NCBI RefSeq assembly: GCF_013415885.1
Contig: NZ_CP058910.1
Coordinates: 2,294,001-2,358,000 of the forward strand
From: Halosimplex rubrum
GTDB lineage: Archaea; Halobacteriota; Halobacteria; Halobacteriales; Haloarculaceae
Direction: 5' to 3'
DNA length: 64,000 nt
Below, one piece after another: positions 24,131 through 41,544 of this stretch; positions within the stretch are counted from its first letter, which is position 1, and the number at the start of each line of letters is the position of its first letter. Both the position numbers and the translations under genes were made by a program. The notes beneath the pieces are model-generated. The model searched no databases. It saw only the letters and a list, made by a program, of their open reading frames with translations, and was not told where the DNA came from.

Positions 24131-25360
24131 GTGAATACTAACGGGACGGTGCGGCCAACGGACTGGCAGATGAGCATCGACCCAGCCGACGAGCCCGCCG
24201 CGGTCGTCGTCCCGGCGATCGACGCACCGAGCAGCACCGCCTGCGTCCGTTCGCTCGGGAAGCGCGGGATCCACACCGTCGTCGTCTCCGAAGACGAGGA
24301 CGCCGCCGCCTTCCGGTCGCGCTACGCCGGCGAGACGGTCGTCGTCCCCGACCCTCACGAGGATCTGGTCGCCTACAAGGACGCCCTCCTGTCGCTCGCG
24401 ATGCGGCCGGACGTACTGACGATACTGCCCGTCCGCGAGGAGGACGTGTACGTCCTCGCGCAGTACCGCGAGGCGTTCGAGCCCCACGTCGAGACGCTCT
24501 GGCCGACCGCCGAGGGCCTGCGTCGGGCCCAGGACCGCGTCGAGCTGTTCGACGCGGCCGAACGGGCCGGCGTCGCCGTGCCCGACACCAACCTGCTCGA
24601 CGAGGTCGCCGACTGGGACCGCGAGTGGATCGTCAAGGGTCGGTACACCCTGCTCGCCGACGCCTACGTCGACGACCTGTCGCCCGAGCAGTCCCGCGAC
24701 CCGCCCTCGACGCAGTACCTCAACGGCGACAGGCCCGACGTGGAGACGATCCGCAGCCGGAACGGCCACACGCCGATCGTCCAGGAGTTCCTCCCCTCCA
24801 CCGACGAGTACGCCTTCTTCGCCCTGTACGACGAGGGCGAGGCCGTCAGGACCTTCCAGCACCGGCAAGTCCGCGCGTACAACTACGCCGGCGGACCCAG
24901 CTCCTTCCGCGAGTCCGTCTCGATCCCCCAACTGGACGAGGCCGGCCGGGCGCTGCTGGACGAACTGGAGTGGCACGGGGTGGCGATGGTGGAGTTCCTG
25001 CGCGACGACGAGACCGGCGAGTTCGAGCTGATGGAGATCAACCCGCGGCTGTGGTCGTCGCTCCCCTTCTCGGTCCGCGCGGGCGCGGACTTCCCTCACG
25101 ACTACTGGCTGCTCGCCCGCGGCGAGCGCGACCGGGTTGTCGACGACTACGAGGTCGGCACCGCCGGCCACCTCATCCGCGGCGAGATCTCCTATCTCCA
25201 CAGCGTCCTGTTCGACGCGGAGGAGCTGGTCGAGCGGCCGGTCCGTCGGGAGGCGTTCTCGGCGGTCGCCGAGTCGCTCCGGGAGTACCCCCGCTTCGAC
25301 TACCTTCGTCTGGACGACCCGCGACCGTTCGTCCGCGACGCGCTGAACGCGCTTCGGTGA
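24131..25360 (+). CDS. ATP-grasp carboxylate-amine ligase-like protein
   Basis: A 409-residue ATP-grasp protein. Start GTG 24131 is used; ATG 24170 (MSIDPADEP) is an alternative. The N-terminal preATP domain begins near VVPAIDAPSSTACVRSLG. The ATP-grasp core includes REWIVKGRYT, TPIVQEFLPSTDEYAFF and the metal-binding ELMEINPRLW. It resembles the COG3919-like ATP-dependent ligase group that joins a carboxylate to an amine through an acyl phosphate. It converges with the aldolase gene (33-nt gap) and opens the glycan region. The acid and amine are unknown, but context points to a glycan or lipid modification. Confidence 0.82.
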   Translation: MNTNGTVRPTDWQMSIDPADEPAAVVVPAIDAPSSTACVRSLGKRGIHTVVVSEDEDAAAFRSRYAGETVVVPDPHEDLVAYKDALLSLAMRPDVLTILPVREEDVYVLAQYREAFEPHVETLWPTAEGLRRAQDRVELFDAAERAGVAVPDTNLLDEVADWDREWIVKGRYTLLADAYVDDLSPEQSRDPPSTQYLNGDRPDVETIRSRNGHTPIVQEFLPSTDEYAFFALYDEGEAVRTFQHRQVRAYNYAGGPSSFRESVSIPQLDEAGRALLDELEWHGVAMVEFLRDDETGEFELMEINPRLWSSLPFSVRAGADFPHDYWLLARGERDRVVDDYEVGTAGHLIRGEISYLHSVLFDAEELVERPVRREAFSAVAESLREYPRFDYLRLDDPRPFVRDALNALR

Positions 25361-25393
25361 GGAACGTCTACGCCGGTCGGCCGACCGGCGCGG

Positions 25394-26419
25394 TCAGTTG
25401 CGCCGTCTCTCCGGGCGGTCGGTCGCGGGCTTCGTCGGCTCGGCGGTGGCTTCGTACGTGCTCCGCACGTCGTCGACGGTGGCGCAGTCGTGCTCGGCGG
25501 CGAAGACGAGGAGGTCGACGAACGACGCGTCGTACTCCGCGGCGAGCGCTCGCAGCTGGTCGGAGAACGACGAGTGGAAATCGGCGAGGCCGTAGAGCAC
25601 GTCGTCGACGGCGACGCCCGAGGCGTCGGGGTAGACGTCCTCCAGAAGCCCCTCGATCTCCCGGAGTCGCCGCCAGTCGGCACGGGACACGTCCGAGAGA
25701 TAGCGGCCGGCGAGCAGTTCGGTCTGGGTGTTGCCGGCGCTGCGACCGAGCCCCTGGAGCGACACGTCGACGTAGCTGGCCCCGCAGTCGATGGCGCGCT
25801 GGGCGTTGGCGAGGCCGAAGCCGATGTTGTCGTGGCCGTGATAGCCGACGGCGGCGTCCACGTCGGCCATCGCGCCCACGTAGGACTCCACGTCAGCGGG
25901 GGTGAACCCGCCGGCGGAGTCGACAACGTAGACGGTATCGGCCCCGTGTTCGATCCCGACGCGGGCGGCGTCGGCCGCCTCCGTCGGGGAGACGAGATAC
26001 GTCTTCAGCAGGTTGAGGCTCACCCGCACGTCCAGGTCGGCCAGCTCGCGGAGCAGCGGGCGCGCGGCGAGGGGGTCGTCAGCGTCGACGCCGACCCGAA
26101 CGAGGTCGAACGACGACTCGTAGGCGGCGACGAGGTCGACCTCCCCGGGACCGGCGACACCGGGGAGCATCAGCGTCGTCAGCCCGGTGTCCGAGACGGC
26201 CTTCGAGACGATACGGAGATGCTCGCCGTCGGGGGGGTGGGGGTCCGGGTTCGTCGTCCCGAACCCCGTGCCCGGTCCGACGTCGAGGAGGTCGACGAAC
26301 GACAGGTCGTCGATCCGGTCGACCAGCGCGGCCAGTTTCGGGGGGTCGAACTGGAAATCGCTGACGTAGGACCCGTCACGGACGACCTCCTCGACGACGG
26401 TGGCGCCGGCGAGCGTCAT
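25394..26419 (-). CDS. HMGL-like aldolase (4-hydroxy-2-oxovalerate aldolase / isopropylmalate synthase superfamily)
   Basis: A 341-residue TIM-barrel protein. The start of the barrel VVEEVVRDGSYVSDFQF carries the RD pair used for catalysis. The metal site YHGHDNIGFGLAN matches the HxH motif of DmpG and HMGL-type aldolases. GLGRSAGNTQTE near 245 is the loop typical of this superfamily. It likely cleaves or forms a C-C bond of a hydroxy-keto acid. ATG 26419 is the compact start. GTG 26515 would add 32 residues and fits a TATA-like box near 26540, so the start is uncertain. It may feed the neighbouring ligase. Confidence 0.82.
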   Translation of the reverse strand: MTLAGATVVEEVVRDGSYVSDFQFDPPKLAALVDRIDDLSFVDLLDVGPGTGFGTTNPDPHPPDGEHLRIVSKAVSDTGLTTLMLPGVAGPGEVDLVAAYESSFDLVRVGVDADDPLAARPLLRELADLDVRVSLNLLKTYLVSPTEAADAARVGIEHGADTVYVVDSAGGFTPADVESYVGAMADVDAAVGYHGHDNIGFGLANAQRAIDCGASYVDVSLQGLGRSAGNTQTELLAGRYLSDVSRADWRRLREIEGLLEDVYPDASGVAVDDVLYGLADFHSSFSDQLRALAAEYDASFVDLLVFAAEHDCATVDDVRSTYEATAEPTKPATDRPERRRN

Positions 26420-26682
26420 CGTCCCTCCGTCGGTCGTTCGGTGGGACGCGGGGCCGCGGTCCCGCAAGGCGACGGGGCGGAATGGTTCGCGAGCGACAGC
26501 CCGTGAGGGCAACACAGTCGGTTACGAGTTGGGACACTCATTGTAGTGAGGACGCCGCCCGCGACGGGCGGCAGTTCGACAACGTCTACCACGGACAGCC
26601 CGATTGTTATGGCCCGCTTTTACGCCGGTACAGACTATCTACGGACCGATCTTCTGGAGTCGAGAATTCGGCTCATCGGCCG
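26420..26682. other. Intergenic region with hairpin and promoter of the aldolase gene
   Basis: No gene is seen in these 263 bases. A perfect hairpin GCCGCCCG/CGGGCGGC (26554-26561 and 26565-26572, loop CGA) could mark the 3' end of the QueC-like transcript. Minus-strand CACTACAATG near 26540 is a plausible TATA box for the aldolase gene. Confidence 0.4.
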
Positions 26683-28101
26683 TCAACGCAGCCGTTCCCG
26701 AACGGAGCCGTACAGCGGGGACACGCGCTCGTAGACCGGGTAGGGCGTGTGTCGGGCCGCCGTCCGGAGCAGTCGGTCGCGGGCGGGGCGCCCGGCCATG
26801 GACTCGAAGTCGGCCTGGCGGAGCCACGCGAGAAAATCGTCGGCCCCATCCATCGGCAGGGCGGCGTCGTCGGGGATCCGCTTCTGGAAGGTCTGCCAGT
26901 GGTAGGGGGCGTGCTGGTCGTTCAGCCACGCGCCGGCCTCGAAGCGCTCGACGGCGTGTTCGAAGGACGCGCGGTCGACGTGGAAGCCGTGGTCGCTGGG
27001 GTCGAGCCCCGCGAGCGCCAGCCCCAGCGCCGTTCGGACGCACTTCTCGCAGCGGTTGCAGTTGTCGGCGACTTCCGAGGCCGAACAGGAGTACACCGGT
27101 AGGTCCGCGTCGTGGGTCTCGACGTAGTCGACGAGGGTCTCGATGCGCTCCTGGCGCTCGAGTTCGAACAGGTCGTGGACGCCCTGGGTCCCGGCCCAGG
27201 CGACCCGGTCGTCGATGTCGGGATGGGACCCCCACGGCATCGCGCGGCCGTCCCAGTCGTCCACGACCGGCGGCGTCTCCATGCCCTGCCAGACGGAGGC
27301 GGCGACGTATATCTCGCCCATCCCGTCGGCGACGGCCAGCGGCGCGCAGAGTCCGAGCAAGCCGAGCCCGCAGCCGACCGCGCTGTACCACGCGCCGTCG
27401 TGGTCGGTCTGGTAGCGGGCGTCGAGCATCGCCGTGTCGAGGAACTCCAGCGCGTTCGACCGGACGAACCGCGCGTCGACGCCGAAGCGGTCGGCGAACG
27501 ACTCCGTGCGGGCGCGCAACCGCCGCCACCGCTCTGGCTCGTCGACGCTCACGACCCAGCCCTGGATCGTGATCAGCGTCGGCGTCTCCTCGCGGTGACG
27601 GACGTACGTCGCCAGCGAGTCCACGCCGCCCGTGAACAACAGTCCGGTCCCGTCGGCCGTCCCGGTGCCGTACGGCGGCGCCACGTCGTCCCACTCGGGG
27701 GCTCGCTCGACGACGACCCGACCGCCCTGGATGAACGGGTACATCTCGTAGAGCGCGCTCCCGACGGTCTCGAGCGCGTCGAGGAAGCGGCGGTCGACGG
27801 CCGGCGCTCGCACGTCGGCGCCGACGGCCCAGGCCACCGGACAGACCTGTGCGAGGACCGGGATCGTCAGGATCGATTCGGGGAGGGCGGACACGTCGAC
27901 GTCGTACTCGGCGTAGAACGGCGAGTCGTCGAAGAACCGGCGCAGGTCGTCGCTGTAGGAGACCGTCGACTCGACGCGGCGGCCGTCGGCGCTGACCGAC
28001 TCGACGGTGACGACTGGCGAACCGCCGTCGGGACCGCCGCCCGCCGTTTCGCCGGCCTCGCCCACCGCGGCGAGGATACGGGATGCAGCAGTTCGGAACA
28101 C
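26683..28101 (-). CDS. QueC-like PP-loop ATPase, copy 1
   Basis: A 472-residue protein from GTG 28101, with a TATA-like GTATACTTTAC 25 nt upstream. Residues about 1-145 form an N-terminal domain of unknown fold, containing SILTIPVLAQVCPVAWAVGA. The PP-loop FTGGVDS is at 156-162, as in ATP pyrophosphatases that adenylate carboxyl or carbonyl groups. Cys 339, 348, 351 and 354 form C-x8-C-x2-C-x2-C, the zinc signature of QueC (7-cyano-7-deazaguanine synthase). QueC is only about 230 residues, so this is an enlarged relative. Its reaction could be amide or nitrile formation on an acid. The paralogue lies immediately upstream. Confidence 0.85.
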   Translation of the reverse strand: MFRTAASRILAAVGEAGETAGGGPDGGSPVVTVESVSADGRRVESTVSYSDDLRRFFDDSPFYAEYDVDVSALPESILTIPVLAQVCPVAWAVGADVRAPAVDRRFLDALETVGSALYEMYPFIQGGRVVVERAPEWDDVAPPYGTGTADGTGLLFTGGVDSLATYVRHREETPTLITIQGWVVSVDEPERWRRLRARTESFADRFGVDARFVRSNALEFLDTAMLDARYQTDHDGAWYSAVGCGLGLLGLCAPLAVADGMGEIYVAASVWQGMETPPVVDDWDGRAMPWGSHPDIDDRVAWAGTQGVHDLFELERQERIETLVDYVETHDADLPVYSCSASEVADNCNRCEKCVRTALGLALAGLDPSDHGFHVDRASFEHAVERFEAGAWLNDQHAPYHWQTFQKRIPDDAALPMDGADDFLAWLRQADFESMAGRPARDRLLRTAARHTPYPVYERVSPLYGSVRERLR

Positions 28102-28125
28102 GCACCCGACCAGTGGCGCAGCGAT

Positions 28126-28136
28126 GTAAAGTATAC
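28126..28136 (-). promoter_or_regulatory. TATA box of QueC-like copy 1
   Basis: On the minus strand this reads GTATACTTTAC, centred about 30 nt before the GTG at 28101. This fits a leaderless transcript and supports that start codon. A similar AT-rich element (ACTTTAT region at 29713-29723) precedes copy 2. Confidence 0.55.
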
Positions 28137-28224
28137 GTCCGTTACGGCCGTTCTCGGTGGGTAAGCGACCGTTCCCGGGGTCGGGCTCGGCGCGTCGCGG
28201 TCTCGGTCGGCGGGACCGACCGCG

Positions 28225-29706
28225 TCAGGGTCGGGGCGCGCGTTCGCGCACGGCGTCGTAGGCCGGCGACAGGCGGGCGTACACCGAGGCGGGCACCGAG
28301 CGAGCGGCGGCTCGGACGACGCGGTGTGAGACCGGCGGACCGGACCTGGCCGCTACCGCGCGGAGGTCGGCCGTCCGGAGCCAGTCGGCGAACGCGTCGA
28401 CGCCCGCGACCGGGTACGACGCGTCGGGGTCGACCGACGCCTGCAGGTCGAGCCAGTAGGCGAGGATGTGGAAGTCGACCAGCCAGTTGCCGGCCTCGAT
28501 CTCCCGGCGGGCGCGCTCGAAGGTCGCCGCGCTCACGTCGAAGCCGTGGTCGTTCGGGTCGCGACCGGCGAGCGCGAGTCCCAGCGCCGTCCGCGCGCAC
28601 TTCTCGCAGCGGTCGCAGTTGCTCCCGGTCGCCGAGGCCTCGCAGGCCCGGATCGGCAGGTCGATCGGCCGCTCGCGGAGGAACTCGGCGATGGTCTCGA
28701 CGCGCTCCTGGCGGGTGATCTCGAAGGCGTCGTGGGCGACTTCCGTCCCGGCCCAGGCGATCTCGTCGTCGATGGCCGGGTCGGACCCCCAGGGGATCGC
28801 CCCGCCGTCCCAGCTCTCGAACCGGTCCGCCGTCGGGAACCCCGCCCAGTGGGTCGCCGCGAGGTACAGGCGGTCCATCCCCTCCGCGACGGCCAGCGGC
28901 GCGCAGAGCCCGGTCAGCCCGAGACCGCAGCCGACTGCGCTGTACCACGCCCCGTCGTGGCGGGGCTTGTAGTGGGCGTCGAGCATCGCGGTGTCGAGGA
29001 ACTCCAGCATGTTCGACTCGACGAACTGCGCGTCGGTACCGAAGCGGTCGGCGTAGTCGGCGATCCGTCTCCTGGTGTGGGCCCACCGCTCGTCGTCGTC
29101 GACACCCACGAGCCACCCCCTGACGTTGATCAGCGTCGGCTCGGCCTCGTGGTGGCGGACGTACGTCGCCAGCGAGTCCACCCCGCCCGTGAACAGCATC
29201 ACGGTGTCGCCGGTGCCGCCCGCGCCAGCGGGGTCGCCCACCGCGACGGAGTCGTCCGCACCGTCGGTCCCGGACTGCCCCGGTTCGTTCCACTCGGGCG
29301 CGCGTTCGACGAGGACGCGCCCGCCCTCGACGAAGGGATACATCGCGCAGAGGGTGTTGCCGACGGTCTCGAGGGAGTCGAGGAAGCGGCGGTCGGCGAC
29401 GGGGACGCGGACGTCGGCGCCGGCGGCCCACGCGACCGGGCAGACGTGGGCCAGTACCGGGATCGTCAGGATCGACTCGGGGAGGTCGGACACGTCGACG
29501 CCGTACTCGACGTAGAAGGGCGATTCGTCGAAGAACGGTCGCAGGGCGTCGCTGTAGGAGACGGTCGCCTCGACGCGACAGCCGTCGACGGTGACGCTGT
29601 CGACCGAGACAACCGGGGACCGACCGCCGTCGGACCCGCTCGCGCTTCGACCGACCACAGACAGGAAGGGATTGCCACTCGGTATCACGGACGAACCCAC
29701 TCGCAC
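28225..29706 (-). CDS. QueC-like PP-loop ATPase, copy 2
   Basis: A 493-residue paralogue of the downstream gene, alike along the whole length. The PP-loop FTGGVDS is at 172-178. The zinc signature uses C355, C364, C367 and C370 with the same C-x8-C-x2-C-x2-C spacing. The shared motif YSAVGCGLGL lies between them. A 15-20-residue Gly/Asp/Ala insertion sits just before the PP-loop relative to copy 1. GTG 29706 is used; GTG 29700 and 29688 are close in-frame alternatives, because the TATA element lies only about 15 nt from 29706. Both copies keep all motif residues, so both may be active, possibly on different substrates or as a heterodimer. Confidence 0.85.
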   Translation of the reverse strand: MRVGSSVIPSGNPFLSVVGRSASGSDGGRSPVVSVDSVTVDGCRVEATVSYSDALRPFFDESPFYVEYGVDVSDLPESILTIPVLAHVCPVAWAAGADVRVPVADRRFLDSLETVGNTLCAMYPFVEGGRVLVERAPEWNEPGQSGTDGADDSVAVGDPAGAGGTGDTVMLFTGGVDSLATYVRHHEAEPTLINVRGWLVGVDDDERWAHTRRRIADYADRFGTDAQFVESNMLEFLDTAMLDAHYKPRHDGAWYSAVGCGLGLTGLCAPLAVAEGMDRLYLAATHWAGFPTADRFESWDGGAIPWGSDPAIDDEIAWAGTEVAHDAFEITRQERVETIAEFLRERPIDLPIRACEASATGSNCDRCEKCARTALGLALAGRDPNDHGFDVSAATFERARREIEAGNWLVDFHILAYWLDLQASVDPDASYPVAGVDAFADWLRTADLRAVAARSGPPVSHRVVRAAARSVPASVYARLSPAYDAVRERAPRP

Positions 29707-29801: not shown

Positions 29802-31043
29802 TTACGCCGGGACCGGCGCCGAGCGCGGGCGCCGAACGGTCCGGTCGAACAGCACCGTCTCGTGTTCGGCGACGACCGCGTCCCAGTCGTGGGCCTCCGC
29901 GGTGGTGCGGGCCGCTCGTCCGAGTACACGGGCGTCGGCCTCGCCGTCGATCACGCCGTCGAGCGTGTCGACGAGTCCCTCGGCGGTCCCGTCGTACAAC
30001 AGGCCGTTCTCACCGTCGTCGATCAGCCGGCGGTGCGCGGGGATGTCGGTGGCGACCACCGGGGTCCCGGAGGCCATGTACTCCAGGAGCTTCGCGGGGA
30101 AGCTGATCCGGTAGGACTCGATGTCGGCCAGCGAGGAGACGGCGACGTCGGAGTCGGCGAGCACGTCCGGGATCTCCTCGTGGGGGACGATCCCGAGCCA
30201 GGTGACCCGGTCGTCGATCCCGAGCTCGCGGGCCCGCTCGCGCAGGGAGGCCATGTAGTCGTCGTCGCCGCCGCCGGCGACGCGGAACTCGACGTCGCGG
30301 TCGGTCGCCGCGACGGCGTCGAGGACGTGTTCGAGCCCCCGCGGCGGCCCGATCGAGCCGACGTAGGTGACCACCCACGTGTCGTCGGGGCCGCGGGCGG
30401 GCTCGCGGGTCGAGTCGACCGCGAAGCGGTCGGTGTCGACGCCCATCCCGATGACGGCGGCCTCCGAGAGGTCGACGCCGTACTCCAGTTCCGTCGTCTC
30501 GCGGATCCCGTCGGTCAGGCAGACCACCTCCGTCGTCCGGTCGAGCAGCCGGCCCACCGCCCAGGCGTAGTTGGCCTTGACCGCGATCCGGGCCCGCTTG
30601 CGGATCGACAGCCGCTCGTGGGCGGCGTTCGAGAGGTCCCGTTTCTGCCGGACGGGGACCGACTGGAGGCCGACGACGAACCGCGAGCCGCCGGCGCGGG
30701 CCGCCAGCCACCCCTGGATGATCGTCTGCTGGAAGGCGTAGACGGCGTCGAAGCGGTAGCGGGCGCCCAGCGCGACGGCGTACAGCGTCGACGCGACGAG
30801 GAAGAGCAGCCCCGAGATGATGGGCACCTCGCCGGTCGAGAGCTCGTGGTGGGCCACGTCGTCGGGGAACTCCCCGTCCTCGTCGCGGTCCGAGAAGCGC
30901 CGGCTGAGGACGTGGACGGTGTGGGACGCCGAGAGCTTCCGCGAGAGGTAGTGGGGAACGGTCGCGCTGTAGGGGGAGGAGATCTCGCGGTGGTGGACGA
31001 GCAACACGGAGTCGCGGTCGCCGCCCCCTCCTGACCGGCTCAT
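29802..31043 (-). CDS. GT-B glycosyltransferase, family 4
   Basis: A 413-residue enzyme. The N-terminal acceptor domain begins LLVHHREISSPYSATVPHYLSRKL. The C-terminal donor domain shows VVTYVGSIGPPRGLEHVLDAV, FRVAGGGDDDYM, VTWLGIVPHEEIPDVLADSDV and KLLEYMASGTPVVATDIPAHRRLI, all typical of GT4. A central stretch (VPIISGLLFLVASTLYAVAL, about 75-95) is hydrophobic and could tether it to the membrane, as in enzymes that act on dolichol-linked glycans. Its ATG 31043 overlaps the stop of an upstream 50-aa ORF (ATGA). It lies in the glycan region upstream of the QueC-like pair. Confidence 0.88.
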   Translation of the reverse strand: MSRSGGGGDRDSVLLVHHREISSPYSATVPHYLSRKLSASHTVHVLSRRFSDRDEDGEFPDDVAHHELSTGEVPIISGLLFLVASTLYAVALGARYRFDAVYAFQQTIIQGWLAARAGGSRFVVGLQSVPVRQKRDLSNAAHERLSIRKRARIAVKANYAWAVGRLLDRTTEVVCLTDGIRETTELEYGVDLSEAAVIGMGVDTDRFAVDSTREPARGPDDTWVVTYVGSIGPPRGLEHVLDAVAATDRDVEFRVAGGGDDDYMASLRERARELGIDDRVTWLGIVPHEEIPDVLADSDVAVSSLADIESYRISFPAKLLEYMASGTPVVATDIPAHRRLIDDGENGLLYDGTAEGLVDTLDGVIDGEADARVLGRAARTTAEAHDWDAVVAEHETVLFDRTVRRPRSAPVPA

Positions 31044-31192
31044 GGCCGCGCCCCGGGCGGTTCGCGGTACGGTCGAGGCGGTTCGCGATACGGTCGACTG
31101 ACTGTCCGGCGGGCACCGCCGGCGGCCGCCGCGAGCGACGGGCCGGCCGCGGACGACCGCCCGGCGGCGACGCGAGTCGCGATACCTGTCAT
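31040..31192 (-). CDS. Candidate 50-aa small ORF coupled to the glycosyltransferase
   Basis: It begins with ATG 31192, about 28 nt downstream of a minus-strand TATA box (CTTACTTATTG, 31217-31227), and ends with a TGA that overlaps the glycosyltransferase start by 4 nt. It encodes 50 residues beginning MTGIATRVAAGRSS, then an Ala-rich stretch and two PYREPPR repeats. There is no known family. The arrangement suggests a leader peptide that couples translation to the GT gene, or an N-terminal frame alternative. Confidence 0.35.
   Translation of the reverse strand: MTGIATRVAAGRSSAAGPSLAAAAGGARRTVSRPYREPPRPYREPPGARP
31056..31097. repeat. Two 21-bp tandem repeats
   Basis: Two 21-bp units differing at one base lie head to tail inside the small ORF and encode PYREPPR twice. 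Period 21 keeps the reading frame, which mildly supports translation of this ORF. Confidence 0.7.
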
Positions 31193-31475
31193 CGAGCGAC
31201 TCGACCGACCGACGCCCAATAAGTAAGAGCCGGATAACCGCCGTCGTCGCCCGCCACTCGCCCGCGACCACCGACCGGAGCGACCGGAAATCGGCCGCCC
31301 AGGCCGCGACTGCGCCGCGAGCGGCTCCGCCTGCGGTTCGTTCGCACGCGGAGCCAGCCCGCCGAGCGCGGCCGCGACGCTAGAGGCGCTATACCGCTCC
31401 GCTCCGATCAGTCGACGCCGCGTAATCGTCCGTAAGCTGATAATAACATTCCCGACCGGTCCGGTGGGGTGGCGT
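31193..31475. promoter_or_regulatory. Divergent promoter region between the GT and wecC-like genes
   Basis: This stretch carries no gene. It has two back-to-back TATA elements: AATAAGTAAG (31218-31227) for the leftward transcript and GATAATAACATT (31439-31450) for the rightward one, about 30 nt before ATG 31476. Between them is a stem-loop, GGCTCCGC (31323-31330) with GCGGAGCC (31348-31355). Confidence 0.5.
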
Positions 31476-32732
31476 ATGAGCATCGGCATCTACGGCGTCG
31501 GATTCGTCGGCAAGGAGGTCGCGGAACTGGCCGTCGAACGCGGGCGCTCGGTCGCCTGCGTCGACGTGGACCCCGAGGTCGTCGAGCGGATCGAGGCCGA
31601 GGAGTACCTGGCGGTCGACGACCACGACCGCGTCTCGGCGACCACGGACGGCGCGGCGGTCGCGGCCGCGGCCGACACCTGTCTGGTCACGGTCCCGACA
31701 CCGGTCGACGGGGCCGAACGGGTCGACCTCGGGCCGCTCCGGGCGGCCAGCGAGACCATCGGCGAGGGCCTGCGGAGCCGCGACGCCGCCGAGCCCTGTC
31801 TCGTCGTCGTCGAGTCGACCATCCCGCCGGGGACCGCCCGCCGGGAGATCGCCGAGGTCTTCGACACCTACGGCCTGGAGCTGGGCACCGACTACTACCT
31901 CGCGGCCGTGCCCGAGCGGGTCGACCCCGGCAACGAGGCGTGGCCGCTCGAAGCCATCCCCCGGGTCGTCGGCGCCCTCTCGGACGACGGGCTGGAGCGG
32001 GCGACCGCCTTCTACGACCGCCTGCTTGACGCCGAGGCCCACCCGGTCGACAGCGTCGAGATCGCCGAGGTCTCGAAGATCGTCGAGAACGCCTTCCGCG
32101 ACATCAACATCGCCTTCGCCAACGAGATCGCCGTCTCGCTGGACTCGCTGGACGTGGACGCCCGCTCGGCCATCGAGGCCGCGGGGACCAAACCGTTCGG
32201 ATTCATGGGGTTCGAGCCGGGCGCCGGCGTTGGCGGCCACTGCATCCCGGTCGACCCGCACCTGCTCATCGGCGAGGCCGAGGACGCCGGGTTCACCCAC
32301 GAGCTGCTGAGCGTCGCCCGCACGATCAACAATCAGATGCCCGAGTACGTGGCCGACATGACCGTCGACGCGCTCACGCGCGAGCGGGTCCTCCCGCAGG
32401 ACGCCACGGCGCTGTTGCTCGGCCGCGCGTTCAAACCCGACCTCGCGGACGACCGCAACAGCCCGTACTTCGAAGTTCGGGAGGGGCTGACCGAGTACGA
32501 CGTGACCGTCGAGACCTACGACCCCGTCCTCGCCGCGGAGTCGTCGGTCGACTCGCCGTACCAGCCGGTCGACGCGGTCGTCGTCGTCACCGACCACGAG
32601 GCGTTCGCGGACCTGGACCCCGAACGGTTCGCCGACCTGGGCGTCTCGACGGTCGTCGACGGCCGCGACGTCTTCGACGCCGAGGCCGTCGAGGCCGCTG
32701 GACTCCGCTACGACGCAGTCGGGGAGGTCTGA
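31476..32732 (+). CDS. Nucleotide-sugar dehydrogenase, UDP-ManNAc dehydrogenase (WecC) type
   Basis: A 418-residue UDP-sugar dehydrogenase. The Rossmann motif GVGFVGKE follows the start MSIGIYG. The middle part carries PERVDPGN and EVSKIVENAFRDINIAFANE with the conserved Lys. The catalytic Cys is C256 in GGHCIPVDPH. The C-terminal domain has GRAFKPDLADDRNSP and ends in a Rossmann-like UDP-binding fold. The GGHCIPVDPHL and FRDINIAFANE variants are typical of WecC-type enzymes that make UDP-N-acetylmannosaminuronate, rather than UDP-glucose dehydrogenase. The gene supplies a uronic acid for surface glycan. The next gene starts 4 nt after its stop. Confidence 0.9.
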   Translation: MSIGIYGVGFVGKEVAELAVERGRSVACVDVDPEVVERIEAEEYLAVDDHDRVSATTDGAAVAAAADTCLVTVPTPVDGAERVDLGPLRAASETIGEGLRSRDAAEPCLVVVESTIPPGTARREIAEVFDTYGLELGTDYYLAAVPERVDPGNEAWPLEAIPRVVGALSDDGLERATAFYDRLLDAEAHPVDSVEIAEVSKIVENAFRDINIAFANEIAVSLDSLDVDARSAIEAAGTKPFGFMGFEPGAGVGGHCIPVDPHLLIGEAEDAGFTHELLSVARTINNQMPEYVADMTVDALTRERVLPQDATALLLGRAFKPDLADDRNSPYFEVREGLTEYDVTVETYDPVLAAESSVDSPYQPVDAVVVVTDHEAFADLDPERFADLGVSTVVDGRDVFDAEAVEAAGLRYDAVGEV

Positions 32733-32736
32733 GCCG

Positions 32737-33816
32737 ATGCGGGTCTTCGTGACCATCCAGCACCCGGCCCACGTCCACTTCTTCCGCGAGGCCATCGCGG
32801 AGCTGGAGGCCGCGGGCCACGAGGTCTCCGTGTTCATGCGCGACGTGGAGATCGCCGCCGACCTGCTGGAGAGCTACGGCATCGACTACGAGGTGCTCGC
32901 GCCGACCAGCGACTCGCTGCCCTCGCTGGCGCGCTCGCAGGCGCGCTACGAGCTCGCCCTGCTCCGGCGGGCCCGCCGGGAGGAGCCGGACGTGCTCACC
33001 GCGATCGCCGAGCCGGCGGTCGCGCACCTCTCGACGCTGCTTTCCTGCCGGTCGGTCGTGTTCACCGACACCGAGCACGCGACCCTGGGGAACGCCCTCA
33101 CCTTCCCGTTCGCCGACCGGGTCTGTACCCCCGAGGCGTACATGGACGACCTGGGCGACAAGCAGGTCACCTACCCCGGGTTCCACGAGCTCGCCTACCT
33201 CCACCCCGACCGGTTCGAACCGGACCCCTCGGTCGTCGCCGAGGCCGGTGTCGACCCCGACGAGCGGCTCGTCGTCCTGCGGCTGATCGCCTGGGAGGCG
33301 CTGCACGACGTGGGCGGCGGCGGCTTCGCCGACGCGCGCGAGGTCGTCGACGAACTCGAGCGCCACGGCGCGCGAGTGGTGATCACCGCCGAGGCCGACC
33401 TCCCGCCGGATCTCGCCGACCGGCGGGCGACCGTCGCGCCGGAGGACATGCACCACCTGCTGGCCCACGCGGATCTCTTCGTCGGCGAGAGCGCGACGAT
33501 GGCCGCCGAGTCGGCGGTGTTGGGCACGCCCGCAGTGTACGCCTCGACGCTCGAACTCGGGTATCTGGAGGCGCTGGAGTCGGAGTACGGCCTCGTGGTC
33601 AACACGACCGGCGAGGACCGCCAGGCCGAGGCGCTCCACCGCGCCAGCTCGATCCTCGCGAGCCACGAGGAGACCGACTGGGCGGGTCGGCGCGAGCGGT
33701 TGCTCGCCGACTGCGTCGACACGACCGACGTGATCCTGTCGCAGGTGGCCGACGGCCTCGCTCGACGGCCGACCGCCGAGATCGACGCCCCCCGGCCGGT
33801 CGCCGAGCGGCGATGA
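32737..33816 (+). CDS. DUF354 family GT-B-like protein
   Basis: A 359-residue protein starting 4 nt after the UDP-sugar dehydrogenase. The opening IQHPAHVHFFREAIAELEAAGHEV and the DTEHATLGNALTFPFADRV segment match DUF354. This archaeal family resembles GT-B enzymes and UDP-GlcNAc 2-epimerases in fold. The later part ADLFVGESATMAAESAVLGTPAVY is the nucleotide-binding end of such folds. It is likely a glycosyltransferase or epimerase acting on the sugar made by the upstream gene. The exact reaction is unproved. Confidence 0.85.
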   Translation: MRVFVTIQHPAHVHFFREAIAELEAAGHEVSVFMRDVEIAADLLESYGIDYEVLAPTSDSLPSLARSQARYELALLRRARREEPDVLTAIAEPAVAHLSTLLSCRSVVFTDTEHATLGNALTFPFADRVCTPEAYMDDLGDKQVTYPGFHELAYLHPDRFEPDPSVVAEAGVDPDERLVVLRLIAWEALHDVGGGGFADAREVVDELERHGARVVITAEADLPPDLADRRATVAPEDMHHLLAHADLFVGESATMAAESAVLGTPAVYASTLELGYLEALESEYGLVVNTTGEDRQAEALHRASSILASHEETDWAGRRERLLADCVDTTDVILSQVADGLARRPTAEIDAPRPVAERR

Positions 33817-33896: not shown

Positions 33897-35435
33897 ATGC
33901 GTCGAAGTGCAACCAACAAGCAAATGGCGCCCGATCGGTTGTCACGACGGAGATTCCTCAAAGGGACAGTAGCGGCCGCGCTGGGGGTCGGCGCGGCGGG
34001 GTGCGGGTCGAACGAGAGCGACCCGACCGACCGGGAGGACGCGGGGACGCTGGTCGACCCGACCACGCCCACCGGCACGCCGACCGCGACGGCCGAGCCG
34101 ACGCCGACCGGCACGCCCACCGGCACGCCGATCCCGGAGGTCGTCGCCGAGTACGGCGACCAGTTCGACTCGATCGTCAACGTGGTCGACGCCGGCGCCG
34201 ACCCCGAGGGGTCCGAGCCGATCAACGACGTGCTCACCGACGCGATCGCCGAGGACACGCTCGTGTACTTCCCCGCCGGCCGCTACGCGCTCGACTACAT
34301 GGAGATCGAGGACGTCTCCGGCTTCGGGCTCGTCTCGATCCCCCACGAGCGGACGCTCCTCGTCCCGAACGGGACGGTCGAGGAGGTCGGCAACCACTTC
34401 ATCGACTTCAGGCGCGTGGGGGACATCCTCCTCGACGGCCTGGAGTTCGACTTCACCGAGTCCGGCGTCGGCGGCGCCGTCAGGACAATCTCCGAGGGGA
34501 ACGTCGTCGCCCGGAACCTCCGGACCCACGGGAAGCTACCCGACCGGAACAAGGAGCGCAAACACGTCGCCTACCGGTTCGAGGTGCAAGACCCCGAGGG
34601 CAAAGGGCTCGTCGAGCGGGTCGTCGCCCGCGGCGGCGGCCACGAGGGCGGCAACGGCGTCGGCATCTACGTCGGCAAGGACCACGCGGGTTCGCTGACG
34701 TTCCGCGACTGCGAGATTGCGAACTTCCCGAACAACGGCCTGTACGCCTCGGCGCCGGGCCAGACCCTCGACGGCTACACCGGGAACAACGGCGACATCC
34801 ACGTCCGGGGCGGCCGCTACGAGAACAACAACATCGCCAACGTCCGGATCGGCTCGACCGGCTCGACCGTCAAGGACGTGACGGTCGTCGTGGACAAGGT
34901 CCCGCCGAGCCCCTCGCGGAGCCACCTGAACGTCCGCGGGATCAGACTCCGGGCCCGCAGCGACCAGCTGGTCGAGAACTGCGAGGTCCGGATCGGCGCG
35001 GACGCGGGCCGCGGGTTCGGCGCCATCTCCTACCACCCCGAACACGAGAGTTCGACGGTCCGGAACACGACGGTCAAGGTCGACCGCGACGACTTCAGCG
35101 CGATCGACGCGACCGACTCCAGCAACGGGGGGTCCGAGGCGCCGCTGACCTTCGAGAACGTGACCGTCACCGGGAACGCCGGCGGCGGGGCGGCCGTCGA
35201 CATCGCCGACCGCCCCGAGACGACGCTACGGAACTGCCGGATCGAACAGTCCGGCGCCGACCGACGGGGGATCGTGTTCACCGACTCCGAGAACTGCGCC
35301 GTCATCGACTCGACGATCCGGGTGACCGGCCTCCCGATCGAGACCGAGAACGCCTCGGTCGACCGTCGGAACCTCTCCATCGAGAACCTGCGACCCGGAC
35401 AGGCCACCGTGACACCCGTCGCCGACGACGGGTGA
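33897..35435 (+). CDS. Tat-exported lipoprotein with right-handed parallel beta-helix
   Basis: A 512-residue exported protein. The signal SRRRFLKGTVAAALGVGAAGC joins a twin-arginine motif to a lipobox, so it should be Tat-translocated and lipid-anchored. A Pro/Thr linker (about 50-75) follows. The rest is a beta-helix with repeated short strands and turns (VRNTTVKV, FRDCEIANFPNNG, LRNCRIEQSG), the fold of polygalacturonases and pectate lyases. ATG 33897 is used, with TATA-like AAATTATAG about 20 nt upstream; ATG 33924 is possible. It may cleave or bind a surface polysaccharide. Catalytic residues are not evident. Confidence 0.83.
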   Translation: MRRSATNKQMAPDRLSRRRFLKGTVAAALGVGAAGCGSNESDPTDREDAGTLVDPTTPTGTPTATAEPTPTGTPTGTPIPEVVAEYGDQFDSIVNVVDAGADPEGSEPINDVLTDAIAEDTLVYFPAGRYALDYMEIEDVSGFGLVSIPHERTLLVPNGTVEEVGNHFIDFRRVGDILLDGLEFDFTESGVGGAVRTISEGNVVARNLRTHGKLPDRNKERKHVAYRFEVQDPEGKGLVERVVARGGGHEGGNGVGIYVGKDHAGSLTFRDCEIANFPNNGLYASAPGQTLDGYTGNNGDIHVRGGRYENNNIANVRIGSTGSTVKDVTVVVDKVPPSPSRSHLNVRGIRLRARSDQLVENCEVRIGADAGRGFGAISYHPEHESSTVRNTTVKVDRDDFSAIDATDSSNGGSEAPLTFENVTVTGNAGGGAAVDIADRPETTLRNCRIEQSGADRRGIVFTDSENCAVIDSTIRVTGLPIETENASVDRRNLSIENLRPGQATVTPVADDG

Positions 35436-35745: not shown

Positions 35746-38052
35746 ATGGTGAACGGTAACCAGAACGAACCGGATAGTACGAGTGAGCAAACTCGTCGCA
35801 ATCGGCTACCACCGGGCGACGAGTTCGGACGGCGCTCCTTCCTGAAGCTCGGCGCCGGGGCCGCGGCCGCCGGCGCGCTGTTCGCCGGCGAGGCCGCCGC
35901 CGCGCCGACGACGCGCCACCTCGAGATCGTCTCGACGGGCGAGACGACCGAGACGGGCGACCTCGCGGTCGACTACGAGTTCACGGCCACCGGCGAGATC
36001 GCTCCCGACACCGACAACGGCCGCAACTCCGCGGAGGGCAACGACTCGATCGTCCAGAACGACGACGGCACCTGGACCGCTACGGGCACGACCGGCAACG
36101 GCTTCGGCGACGCCTACGCCGTCACGGGCCGCGTCGTCGCGTTCTCCGCGACGGGCGCGTACGACCTCTACCTCGACGGCGAGGCCGTCACCGTCGACGA
36201 CCTCGTCGCCGAGTACGAGCACACGATCGAGGTGTTGACGACCGAGGACCCCTCGGAACTGGACTACACCTTCACGACCACCGGCGAGATCGAACCGAAC
36301 TACGACAACGGCGACAACTCCGCCAGCGGCAACGACTCCGTGACGGAGAACGACGACGGCACGTGGACCGCCGACGGCTACACCGGCAACGGCTACGGCG
36401 ACGCCTACTACTTCGACGGCGACCTCACCGGTTTCGGCCCCGTCGAGGAGTTCGTCGAGGTCCGGGTCGACGGCAGCGCCGTCGACCTGAGCCGGTTCGA
36501 GTCCGAATCCGAGGCCGAGTCCGAGCGACACACGATCGAGGTGCTGACGACCGAGGACCCCTCGGAGCTGGACTACGCCTTCACGACCACCGGCGAGATC
36601 CAGAAGGTCACCGACGTCGCGGAGAACGCCGCCAGCGGCAACGACTCCGTGACGGAGAACGACGACGGCACGTGGACCGCCGACGGCTACACCGGCAACG
36701 GCTACGGCGACACCTACACCTTCGAAGGGGAGCTGACGGACTTCGGCCCCGTCGAGGAGTTCGTCGAGGTCCGGGTCGACGGCACCGCCGTCGATCTGGC
36801 CCGGTTCCGCCCGAAAGAACACACGATCGAGGTACTGACGACCGAGGACCCCTCGGAGCTGGACTACGCCTTCACGACCACCGGCGAAATCCAGAAGGTC
36901 ACCGACGTCGCGGAGAACGCCGCCAGCGGCAACGACTCCGTGACGGAGACCGACGACGGCATCTGGCGCGCCGACGGCTACACCGGCAACGGCTACGGCG
37001 ACACCTACACGTTCCGCGGCGAGCTGCTGACGTTCGGACCGGACGTCGACCACGCCGAGGTGCGGATCGACGGGACCGCCGTCGACCTGAGCGGGTACGA
37101 GGCCCCCCCGGACCCGGCCGTGGTCGTGGGCGGCGGCGACGGCTACTCGGGTACCGTGCCCGAATCCGAGGCCGACGTGGTCGTCTCCACCCGCGGCGAG
37201 CTCGAGCAGGCGCTGAACGGCGCGTCGAGCGGCGACGTGGTGTACGTCGACCCCGACGCGAGCATCAACGTCCCGGACCGCGAGCTGACGATCCCCTCGG
37301 GCGTGACGCTCGCCTCGAACCGCGGCATCGACGGCTCCGACGGCGGGGAGATCCGCGCCGACGAGGTCTACGGCGAGGGGCCGCTCCAGACCGGCGACGA
37401 CGTGCGCGTCACGGGCCTGCGTATCACCGGCTCGATCGACGAGTACGTCGACTTCAACCGTCCGGTCCACAGCGGTGTGGCCGTCAAGGGAACCGGCTGC
37501 GAGATCGACAACGTCGAGATCTCCGGGTTCAGCTACGGCGGCGTCAAGCTCCAGGAGCCCGCCTACGTCCACCACTCGTACATCCACACCAACGCGATGG
37601 ACGGTCTGGGCTACGGGATCGTCTGCAACCAGGAGGGCGGTGACACCCTGATCGAGTACAACGAGTTCAACCTCAACCGCCACTCCGTCGCCAGCCGCGG
37701 CTACGCGGGCTACGAGGTCCGCTACAACCACTTCGGCGAGGACGCGATCGCCTACCAGGTCGGGACCCACCGGCCGGGCGGTACGACGCTCGAGGTCCAC
37801 CACAACACGTTCGTCCCCACCCTGCACCTCAACTCCGGGGAGGACCCCGAGTCGCACGTCAGCATCCGCGGCGTCCCGGACGACGTCGCGGACATCCACC
37901 ACAACTGGTTCCACAACCCGAGACAGCCCGCCCCCGGGCGGGGAAGGGAATCGATCATCCAGCCCCACGTCGAGGAGTTCACGAACCTCGACTACCGGAA
38001 CAACCACTACGGGGCCGACGAGCCGACCGACGACGACATCGGCTGTCCCTGA
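35746..38052 (+). CDS. Tat-exported pectate-lyase-like protein with four N-terminal repeats
   Basis: A 768-residue exported protein. The Tat signal has GRRSFLKLGAGAAAAG near 27-42. Residues about 60-450 are four repeats of about 97 residues with the pattern D-Y-x-F-T-x-T-G-E-I and then GNDSVTENDDGTW and DGYTGNGYGD, probably beta-rich adhesion modules. Residues about 460-768 are a right-handed beta-helix with the pectate-lyase-like signature IDGSDGGEIR, VHHSYIHTNAMDG, DIHHNWFHNPRQPAPGRG and RNNHYG. It is likely secreted to act on or attach to polysaccharide. A shorter paralogue with one repeat follows. Confidence 0.85.
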   Translation: MVNGNQNEPDSTSEQTRRNRLPPGDEFGRRSFLKLGAGAAAAGALFAGEAAAAPTTRHLEIVSTGETTETGDLAVDYEFTATGEIAPDTDNGRNSAEGNDSIVQNDDGTWTATGTTGNGFGDAYAVTGRVVAFSATGAYDLYLDGEAVTVDDLVAEYEHTIEVLTTEDPSELDYTFTTTGEIEPNYDNGDNSASGNDSVTENDDGTWTADGYTGNGYGDAYYFDGDLTGFGPVEEFVEVRVDGSAVDLSRFESESEAESERHTIEVLTTEDPSELDYAFTTTGEIQKVTDVAENAASGNDSVTENDDGTWTADGYTGNGYGDTYTFEGELTDFGPVEEFVEVRVDGTAVDLARFRPKEHTIEVLTTEDPSELDYAFTTTGEIQKVTDVAENAASGNDSVTETDDGIWRADGYTGNGYGDTYTFRGELLTFGPDVDHAEVRIDGTAVDLSGYEAPPDPAVVVGGGDGYSGTVPESEADVVVSTRGELEQALNGASSGDVVYVDPDASINVPDRELTIPSGVTLASNRGIDGSDGGEIRADEVYGEGPLQTGDDVRVTGLRITGSIDEYVDFNRPVHSGVAVKGTGCEIDNVEISGFSYGGVKLQEPAYVHHSYIHTNAMDGLGYGIVCNQEGGDTLIEYNEFNLNRHSVASRGYAGYEVRYNHFGEDAIAYQVGTHRPGGTTLEVHHNTFVPTLHLNSGEDPESHVSIRGVPDDVADIHHNWFHNPRQPAPGRGRESIIQPHVEEFTNLDYRNNHYGADEPTDDDIGCP
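36220..37110 (+). repeat. Three in-frame repeats of about 291-309 bp encoding surface modules
   Basis: Units begin at 36220, 36529 and 36820 with the codons for HTIEV, and a more diverged copy precedes them from about 35920. Copies starting at 36529 and 36820 are nearly identical in DNA sequence, pointing to recent duplication or gene conversion. Confidence 0.8.
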
Positions 38053-38065
38053 CCGCCGGACTCTT

Positions 38066-38078
38066 CTCGGCTTTTTCG
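38066..38078 (+). terminator. T-rich terminator candidate
   Basis: A CTTTTTCG run lies 20 nt after the stop of the large beta-helix gene. Oligo-T tracts are the usual archaeal termination signal. Confidence 0.4.
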
Positions 38079-38333
38079 TCTCGCGCGCACGCGAGAGCGG
38101 CCCGTCTCGCGGGGGTAATCGCACGTTTCTCCCGACGCATCGCGAGCCCGAGCGAGCCGGCCGGAGGTGCGCGCTCCCCGCTCGCCGGCCGTCTCGGGTA
38201 AGCCGCTCCTACGCAAAGACTCGGGAAGCCGCAACCAACCACACGGATCCGGTACGGAAGCGGCGCGCAAGCGCGGGTGCCTCGCACCGCTACTGCAGGT
38301 AGCCTTATCCCAGAAGCGGTGACTTACCGCGAT

Positions 38334-39749
38334 ATGGTGTTCGGAAACCAGAGCGAAACGATGGGCGACGAAACACGAGACGATCGTAACGCGGGCTTAC
38401 CGGGCGGTTCGGGCGGGTTCGGGCGACGGTCGTTTCTGACGGCGGCGGCCGCGGCGGCGGCCGCTCCGCTGGTCACGGGGGGCGGACGGGCCGCGCAGGG
38501 GTCGGGCGGTCGGCGACGGATCGAGATCGACAGCACCGGTTCGAAGGCGGTGAACTACGAGTTCACGGCGACGGGCGCGGTCGAACCCGTCCGCGGCGAC
38601 GCCGAGGGCAACGACTCCGTCACGGAGAACGGCGACGGCACCCGGACCGCGACCGGGTCGGTCGGCTCGTGGGGCCGCGATACCTACACGTTCGAGGGAC
38701 GCATCACCGCCTTCTCGCCGACGAAGGGCGACTTCGAGCTCCGCGTCGACGGGACGCGCGTCGACCCCTCGGCGGTCGCGAACGAGAAGACGCTGAACTC
38801 GCTGCCGGCGGCCAGCGGCGTGCTCGGCGGCGGGAAGGGCTACCCGGACGCGGTCCCGAAGTCGGCGGCCACCACGGTCGTCTCGACGATCGACGGGCTC
38901 GAGCAGGCGCTGAACGGGGCCTCCAGCGGCGACGTGGTCTACGTCGACGGCTCGGCGACGATCCAGGCCGGTAAGCGCGAGCTGACCGTCCCCTCGGGCG
39001 TGACGCTCGCCTCGAACCGCGGCATCGACGGCGCGAAGGGCGGGGAGATCCACGCCGGCGAGGTCCACGGCGAGGGCCCCATCCACACCGAGAACCAGGT
39101 CCGGATCACGGGCGTGCGGATCACCGCGCCGAACGACGAGTACATGGAGTACACCCGCCCGGTCCACAGCGGCGTGGTCGTCGGGGGCAGGGGCTGTGAG
39201 ATCGACAACGTCGAGATCGCCGGGTTCACCTACTCGGGCGTGAAGCTGCTGCGCTCGGCGCGGATCCACCACTCGCACATCCACTCCAACCCGATGGACG
39301 GCCTCGGCTACGGGATCGTCTGCATCGGCGGCGGCAGCACCCTGATCGAGTACAACCGCTTCAACTACAACCGCCACTCCGTCGCGAACCAGGGCACCGC
39401 CGGCTACGAGGTCCGCTACAACCACTTCGGCGACAAGGCCGTCGCCTATCAGGTCGGGACCCACCGGCCGGGCGCGACCACGCTGAAGATCCACCACAAC
39501 ACGTTCGTCCCGACCAAACACATCAACTCCGGGGAGGACCCCGAGTCGCACGTCAGCATCCGCGGCGTCCCGGACGACGTCGCGGACATCCACCACAACT
39601 GGTTCCACAACCCGAAGCAGCCGGCGCCGGGCCGCGGCACGGAGTCGATCATCCAGCCCCACTCGAACCAGTTCCGGAACGTGAACTTCGACGCCAACCA
39701 CTACGGCGCGAAGAAGCCGTCCGACCCGACGATCGGCTGCCCGCGGTAA
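38334..39749 (+). CDS. Tat-exported pectate-lyase-like protein, shorter paralogue
   Basis: A 471-residue paralogue of the upstream gene. The Tat signal is GRRSFLTAAAAAAAAPLV. Only one copy of the N-terminal beta module is present (about 60-160). It carries the recognisable GNDSVTENGDGT motif, then a beta-helix of about 300 residues. A 91-bp DNA stretch (39525-39615) is identical to 37831-37921 in the paralogue, and both genes share a CCGCGATATGGTG start context. It keeps VHHSHIHSNPMDG- and DIHHNWFHNPKQPAPGRG-type motifs. The pair likely acts on the same polysaccharide but with different reach or binding. Confidence 0.82.
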   Translation: MVFGNQSETMGDETRDDRNAGLPGGSGGFGRRSFLTAAAAAAAAPLVTGGGRAAQGSGGRRRIEIDSTGSKAVNYEFTATGAVEPVRGDAEGNDSVTENGDGTRTATGSVGSWGRDTYTFEGRITAFSPTKGDFELRVDGTRVDPSAVANEKTLNSLPAASGVLGGGKGYPDAVPKSAATTVVSTIDGLEQALNGASSGDVVYVDGSATIQAGKRELTVPSGVTLASNRGIDGAKGGEIHAGEVHGEGPIHTENQVRITGVRITAPNDEYMEYTRPVHSGVVVGGRGCEIDNVEIAGFTYSGVKLLRSARIHHSHIHSNPMDGLGYGIVCIGGGSTLIEYNRFNYNRHSVANQGTAGYEVRYNHFGDKAVAYQVGTHRPGATTLKIHHNTFVPTKHINSGEDPESHVSIRGVPDDVADIHHNWFHNPKQPAPGRGTESIIQPHSNQFRNVNFDANHYGAKKPSDPTIGCPR

Positions 39750-41221: not shown

Positions 41222-41544
41222 ACGCGGTCCGACCGGGCTCTCGCCATTAGCTATGATGGCCGTAACGCCCCGATACGGAGCGCTTACTCGCGGGTAACGA
41301 CCGTTTAACAAGGGGGAGCGCTCGCGGACGGGCGAGACGAATGACCTGCATCCGCGCGAGTCGGCCGGCGCCCTCCCGTCGGCTCGGTCCCGTCGGTCGG
41401 CCGTCCGGTGAGGACGGTCGACGCGCACGCGAGTTCGGTCGGAGAGCGTCGAGCGGACCCCCCGCCCGTCGGACGGCGCCGAGGGACGGCCACCGAGTGT
41501 ACGGAACGGGCCGACGGCCCGGCGCGGCGGCCGGATCGTAGCCC
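41222..41544. other. Divergent intergenic region before the flippase gene
   Basis: These 323 bases hold no convincing gene. A TATA-like GTTTAACAAGG lies near 41309. A reading frame at 41341-41541 is Arg-rich, unlike the acidic neighbours, and is probably a shadow. It looks like a long untranslated leader. Confidence 0.4.

Follow-up and report, generated by a model that had tools for sequence, protein, structure and literature searches.

The question raised by a 64,000-nucleotide stretch of the Halosimplex rubrum genome (RefSeq assembly GCF_013415885.1, contig NZ_CP058910.1, positions 2,294,001 to 2,358,000, referred to here as the window) is what role two QueC-like PP-loop proteins play at the start of a surface-glycan locus. 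An initial annotation of this DNA had described four enzyme genes that open a surface-glycan region, encoding an ATP-grasp ligase, an HMGL-like aldolase and the two PP-loop proteins, and had suggested that they form a pathway. The source genome is a 4.48-Mb single-contig Halosimplex whose closest named relatives are H. pelagicum and H. carlsbadense. All four genes were confirmed at the positions given in Table 1, with coding statistics of haloarchaeal type (G+C content at third codon positions of 0.91-0.94, an excess of acidic residues), and the region is a surface-glycan locus. The PP-loop proteins represent an unnamed branch, a variant within the QueC superfamily, and a role of this family in glycan synthesis is judged probable.

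The assignment could not be read from protein family libraries because neither window copy has a match above the cut-off in Pfam, NCBIfam or PADLOC, and none was obtained to the QueC family PF06508 at its curated cut-off. When 53 family members were scanned, only a few weak matches (E 8e-4 or worse) spread across unrelated families were returned, the recurrent names being DUF6395 (7 members) and QueC (4 members, best E 0.0027). The window copies are ~60% identical to each other, and both include LFTGGVDS and, as originally claimed, the exact C-x8-C-x2-C-x2-C zinc signature (CSASEVADNCNRCEKC and CEASATGSNCDRCEKC). Across the family, a [ST]GGxD[SG] PP-loop (TGGVDS in the window copies) and the Cys4 pattern are each kept in 51/53 members. 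According to a recent survey of PF06508 (PMC13329287), canonical QueC is defined by SGGxDS, C(x)8CxxCxxC, YxQxHxxE, VPxRN and YPDC. With loosened patterns, the last three, which are substrate motifs, were found in 1, 0 and 4 of the 53 members, as compared with 7/8 haloarchaeal QueC sequences for each. In the anti-phage protein QatC, a Tyr/Asp pair of the substrate site is replaced by Thr-x-Thr (PMC13279940); neither this motif nor the HP motif of QatC occurs in any of the 53 members, and a WGSxP-type pattern (45/53) and TRQ (40/53) are common instead. As the first two QueC motifs are kept and the substrate motifs and Thr-x-Thr are lost, the enzymes have probably kept the ability to activate a carboxylate or similar group with ATP, and 7-carboxy-7-deazaguanine is an unlikely substrate. 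A canonical queC gene is present elsewhere in the genome.

Profile comparison placed the family with QueC. Using hhalign, matches across the PP-loop-to-Cys4 core were obtained to haloarchaeal QueC (probability 95, E 3.7e-8) and to haloarchaeal QatC-like proteins (probability 95.9, E 5.8e-9). An AlphaFold2 model of PP-loop protein 2, built from an alignment of the 53 sequences, had a predicted local distance difference test score (pLDDT) of 87.5. Its top match in the PDB was QatC (9y01; Foldseek E 2.2e-6; VIA-align Z 14.1 over 316 residues, model positions 29-454), and QueC (2pg3) was aligned with Z 13.4 over 189 residues (model positions 165-426). Next came ArtA, a nitrile synthetase (Z 10.9), and Cap9 (Z 10.4), level with other PP-loop enzymes. 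By sequence, no relative of the family was retrieved from the PDB. Since 127 more residues are aligned with QatC than with QueC, most of the difference must be accounted for by the extensions that flank the QueC core at the N- and C-terminal ends, which are thus predicted to be of QatC type. The agreement of profile comparison and predicted fold confirms the QueC kinship put forward initially, and membership of the superfamily is hardly in doubt. The family therefore shares the core fold, PP-loop and Cys4 site of canonical QueC (7-cyano-7-deazaguanine synthase), but it is twice as long and the QueC substrate motifs are gone. No paper was found that connects polysaccharide loci with a QueC-like family, WbpG-type enzymes excepted, and the group is not named in the available part of the PF06508 survey.

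QatC, encoded by the anti-phage qatABCD system (PMC13279940), shares with the family its length, the Zn Cys4 site and the succession of an N-terminal domain, a QueC core and a C-terminal helical extension, but is only 13% identical, has Thr-x-Thr/HP where the family has WGSxP, and does not share its glycan context. This likeness, which includes both extensions, would suit protein conjugation of the kind performed by Cap9 and proposed for QatC. A partner protein would receive a small molecule at its N-terminus, and a surface protein or a glycan enzyme would thereby be controlled or anchored; the recurrent tandem copies could also form heteromers. However, Thr-x-Thr is absent from 53/53 members and no conserved QatB-like partner was found, the sole small conserved neighbour being a domain of exported beta-helix proteins. 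Protein conjugation is hence considered quite improbable. That domain, ~70 residues in length (LPHVLEVEGRGTPTSYEITVDGTIEL...), recurs in PP-loop loci and partly overlaps the beta-helix gene family. It stands alone beside a Natronorubrum PP-loop gene (L136:15471-15800) and elsewhere is part of larger proteins; the stand-alone form was assessed as a QatB-like small substrate and was rejected on finding that it is the beta-helix protein domain.

A defence role, as a relative of Qat or of type IV cyclic oligonucleotide-based anti-phage signalling systems (CBASS), had been offered as an alternative, and the QueC-like fold common to QatC and Cap9 is compatible with it. No PADLOC match was obtained, however, and at E 0.01 the QatC model NF041925 matched canonical QueC alone in the window's genome, not the PP-loop loci. 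Genes for KAP ATPase, TatD and CD-NTase were not found among the 26 window genes scanned with Pfam, and the context is that of glycan synthesis. The absence of qatB near the window genes is inferred, as there is no Pfam model for it. Cap9 is a minimal protein of near 185 residues with a CD-NTase neighbour, and differs in both respects from the window copies (472 and 493 residues). With PADLOC, the QatC model and the partner genes all negative, the defence reading was rejected as highly improbable. Separately, haloarchaeal proteins of mostly ~488 residues (L186-L194) in 9/242 genomes match the QatC model with E values of 1e-25 to 1e-45, under its cut-off, and possibly belong to archaeal Qat-like systems.

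The surroundings of the PP-loop genes point to glycans. Neighbourhoods were read from stretches of sequence around each family locus, and 55 haloarchaeal loci, each 18 kb or longer, were compared with 20 random 20-kb segments from genomes of haloarchaea. A probable membrane protein of 616 residues was found at 43/55 loci, a PF01663 phosphodiesterase at 40, a polysaccharide deacetylase at 35, a glycosyltransferase at 26 and a DUF354 protein at 22, each with 0/20 in the controls; Gfo/Idh/MocA proteins and epimerases were each found at 28/55 loci and in 1/20 controls. In a Natronorubrum locus, genes for a PP-loop protein, an ATP-grasp protein, a polysaccharide deacetylase, a formyltransferase and a GNAT protein adjoin. 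The glycan theme extends to unrelated hosts, which is a better argument than the haloarchaeal counts. The Priestia plasmid locus includes UDP-glucose dehydrogenase, GalU, a pyruvyl transferase and a DUF6395 protein, the Pseudobutyrivibrio family member lies inside a polysaccharide operon, and a pyruvyl transferase, a sulfotransferase and a GNAT protein are encoded at the Omnitrophota, Devosia and Dehalococcoidia loci, respectively. The surface-glycan setting first noted in the window is thus shared by other haloarchaea and by distantly related bacteria.

DUF6395 (PF19932) is the nearest Pfam name to the family, with matches under the cut-off. In the Priestia DUF6395 protein (L138:20555-21871), encoded on the same polysaccharide plasmid as family members, a PP-loop (YSGGVDS) and a Cys4 motif are both present, and hence DUF6395 looks like another branch of the QueC superfamily in a polysaccharide region. 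Its alignment with the N-terminal domain of the window PP-loop proteins is partial (probability 82%).

The family is present in 103/391 Halobacteria genomes and in 30/86 genera. A scan of named genomes yielded 78 loci, chiefly in Natrialbaceae and Haloarculaceae, and outside the haloarchaea in Bathyarchaeota, Paenibacillus, Dehalococcoidia, Devosia, Dependentiae and Omnitrophota; additional members are found on Priestia and Pseudobutyrivibrio plasmids. Tandem pairs or triplets of PP-loop genes were observed in at least six unrelated lineages (L125, L128, L129, L135, L138 and window positions 26683-29706), the Dehalococcoidia locus (L125) having three open reading frames of 429 residues spaced 57 bases apart. 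In a maximum-likelihood tree, every bacterial lineage had its own tandem copies grouped with full support (two each in Devosia and Priestia, three each in Omnitrophota, Dehalococcoidia and Dependentiae), and the Halosimplex copies formed a clade of their own plus one unclassified Halobacteriales sequence. This grouping by lineage indicates that tandem duplication occurred at least six times, or that the copies are homogenised. It suggests a benefit from having more than one specialised copy, e.g. for two acidic sugars per repeat unit or for two successive steps.

The ATP-grasp protein has only weak Pfam matches (ATP-grasp and PylC-like, under curated cut-offs) and reached no curated subfamily cut-off. 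Its model (pLDDT 73.6) clearly has the ATP-grasp fold, with Z 23.5 to 2pn1 and 22.3-22.7 to the L-amino acid ligases 3wo1 and 3vot (3vot 22.7), so that it shares the fold of carboxylate-amine ligases such as YwfE/BacD, 3vot and RizA (Z 22-23.5 including 2pn1). The motifs KxRYT and EINPR are conserved, and E302 and N304 of the Mg-binding E..N pair are invariant. Amide formation is putative, and the substrate is not fixed by the fold because the scores tie among L-amino acid ligases, biotin carboxylase and PurK. In 11 of the 13 loci with both genes, located in Halosimplex, Halorientalis, Natronorubrum and Natronolimnohabitans, the ATP-grasp and PP-loop genes lie tail to tail within 1.5 kb; the two exceptions are second loci of Halosimplex in which the paralog is ~6 kb distant. 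An ATP-grasp gene lies beside the PP-loop gene in 7/7 Halosimplex genomes that have the family. Glycan loci of Haloferax and Halorussus too encode relatives of the ATP-grasp protein, and no PP-loop gene lies in the stretch seen there; the protein is therefore a frequent, not an obligate, partner.

The aldolase is not conserved in this way. It matches the Pfam HMGL-like model with 60.8 bits (cut-off 29), is ~30% identical to DmpG, a 4-hydroxy-2-oxovalerate aldolase, and to the putative aldolase 3dxi, and keeps the metal site shared with both (RDG at position 15 and HGH, of the HxH type, at position 195 of the translated stretch). In DmpG, the His that follows RDG is catalytic. The window protein has RDGSY where DmpG has RDGSH, resembling the RDGGY of 3dxi; it scored 126 bits against the 286-bit cut-off of the 4-hydroxy-2-oxovalerate aldolase equivalog, and no acetaldehyde dehydrogenase partner was found among the scanned genes. 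Orthologs were identified in 3/7 Halosimplex genomes with the family, at 2/55 loci and in no other sampled Halobacteria genome. The window aldolase is thus not a canonical hydroxy-oxovalerate aldolase, and it is accessory and dispensable. As it is missing from 4/7 Halosimplex genomes, the conserved four-gene pathway was rejected, and what is left of it is a recurrent PP-loop/ATP-grasp pair with an optional, lineage-specific aldolase. A strict coupling of the aldolase to the PP-loop 1 clade, suggested by a first tree, was also rejected, since genome G392 lacks the aldolase although its PP-loop 1 is 73% identical. On a Pseudoroseomonas plasmid (L185:4915-9764), an HMGL-like aldolase, an amidohydrolase and an ATP-grasp protein are clustered next to a dTDP-sugar transaminase; this cluster was rejected as a relative because its ATP-grasp protein has no BLAST similarity to that of the window.

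This uneven conservation would fit PP-loop, ATP-grasp and aldolase genes that are interchangeable decoration cassettes of a glycan island, acting on different sugars in no shared pathway and brought together by shuffling. The aldolase distribution, the ATP-grasp counts and the Haloferax and Halorussus loci all favour this possibility, but the tail-to-tail layout recurs across Halosimplex, Halorientalis and Natronorubrum/Natronolimnohabitans, and shuffling is regarded as an unlikely explanation.

The location in surface-sugar clusters and the frequent ATP-grasp pairing suggest that the PP-loop proteins build amide-type decorations on the sugars, a chemistry that stands at about an even chance. 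In the preferred model, which could as well prove wrong as right, the PP-loop enzymes modify carboxylates in surface-polysaccharide precursors. They would adenylate a carboxylate at the TGGVDS loop, most likely that of a uronic-acid-type sugar nucleotide or lipid-linked sugar; transfer to ammonia or an amine would then give an amide, from which a second round as in QueC may lead to a nitrile. The tail-to-tail ATP-grasp enzyme would form a second carboxyl-amine bond via an acyl phosphate, e.g. adding an amino acid, and the aldolase, where present, might supply or trim an unusual oxo-acid. A WecC-type dehydrogenase had been noted as a possible nearby source of the uronic-acid precursor, and such a gene for a UDP-sugar dehydrogenase is present (Table 1). 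The linking sugar of Porphyromonas offers a close precedent in function: gene deletion revealed that WbpS, an AsnB-like enzyme, makes its uronamide, and VimA is inferred to attach Ser/Gly after deacetylation by VimE (PMC7468200).

The WbpS/AsnB-like enzymes and the WbpG/PseA sugar amidotransferases are likely functional analogues, being PP-loop enzymes that act on surface sugars, though with another Cys pattern than the window family. These enzymes rely on a glutaminase domain or partner. Among archaea, glycans bearing acetamidino groups are known from Methanococcus (title cited in PMC4336324). As N-acetyl sugar amidotransferases of WbpG/PseA type do, the window enzymes could convert a sugar to an amidine or thio derivative rather than form an amide on a carboxylate, given that WbpG-type proteins are the known superfamily members from O-antigen loci (cluster 5, PMC13329287), the same setting. 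However, 0/53 members match the NCBIfam sugar amidotransferase families, and their QueC-type Cys4 site, with CxxCxxC at the C-terminal end of the core, differs from the CxxC-x6-CxC of cluster 5, making this chemistry improbable.

Several observations weigh against amide-type modification of surface-polysaccharide carboxylates. An ATP-grasp gene was found in only 9/55 family loci (p 0.051 as compared with the controls). Most of the 55 loci are from Natrialbaceae and are not independent, and the p-values for context enrichment are overstated because the loci share descent. The neighbours at the second PP-loop locus of the window's genome are an FkbM methyltransferase, a DHH protein and an NAD synthase, with a glycosyltransferase and an epimerase only farther off, and the Paenibacillus locus and one Bathyarchaeota locus (L134) are not clearly of polysaccharide type. 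The PP-loop enzymes have no glutaminase domain to provide nitrogen, and their substrate, nucleophile and product are inferred only. The second locus (L033, G000:C1:1693202-1694491 and 1700987-1702147) encodes paralogs of the PP-loop (50%) and ATP-grasp (49%) proteins ~6.5 kb apart.

A fuller version of the amide-type model is put forward tentatively, as less likely than not. A widespread QueC branch would have been recruited to surface glycans, where it makes amides or nitriles on sugar acids without a glutaminase, repeated tandem duplication would have given two or three specialised copies that serve one polymer, and in haloarchaea the ATP-grasp enzyme would add a second amide.

Table 1. Features of the Halosimplex rubrum surface-glycan locus (positions within the window).
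Feature	Positions	Strand	Remarks
ATP-grasp ligase (carboxylate-amine ligase type)	24131-25360	+	Assigned by fold and weak Pfam matches; tail to tail with aldolase/PP-loop genes
DRE-TIM (HMGL-like) aldolase	25394-26419	-	From first ATG of the frame; Pfam HMGL-like; accessory, lineage-restricted
PP-loop protein 1	26683-28101	-	472 residues; QueC superfamily with QatC-like extensions
PP-loop protein 2	28225-29706	-	493 residues; tandem paralog of PP-loop protein 1; modelled
Glycosyltransferase family 4 (GT4) protein	29802-31271	-	Upstream of PP-loop protein 2, same strand
UDP-glucose/GDP-mannose (WecC-type) dehydrogenase	31464-32732	+	Possible uronic-acid source
DUF354/glycosyltransferase-like protein	32737-33816	+	
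Right-handed beta-helix protein	33897-35435	+	
Right-handed beta-helix protein	35746-38052	+	
Right-handed beta-helix protein	38277-39749	+	
Sulfatase-family protein	39905-41428	-	
Wzx-type polysaccharide flippase	41545-42969	+	
Glycosyltransferase	43264-44196	+	Relatives in 26/55 PP-loop loci
673-residue protein	44193-46214	+	No Pfam match; few charged residues, probably membrane
DUF1616 protein	46219-47313	+	

Along the minus strand of the window, in the direction of transcription, the GT4 glycosyltransferase gene comes first, then PP-loop 2, PP-loop 1 and the aldolase, separated in turn by 95, 123 and 263 bases. The ATP-grasp gene converges on this set, and 33 bases separate its end from the aldolase stop codon. 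Among the three beta-helix proteins, one match to a twin-arginine translocation signal and one pectate-lyase/epimerase-like match were found. The two adjacent proteins at 35746-39749 share long similar stretches and look like tandem duplicates, and the third matches the second one of the sister species at 62% over ~410 residues.

Known settings of the QueC fold are tRNA modification and, more recently, anti-phage protein modification. If the reading given here is true, a further role would be added in the surface-polysaccharide loci of about a quarter of the sampled haloarchaeal genomes and of scattered bacteria. A QatC-like architecture would then by itself be no sign of defence, which matters for genome annotation. 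The finding would also open a direct test for amide- or nitrile-bearing glycans in archaea, the chemistry of which is poorly known.

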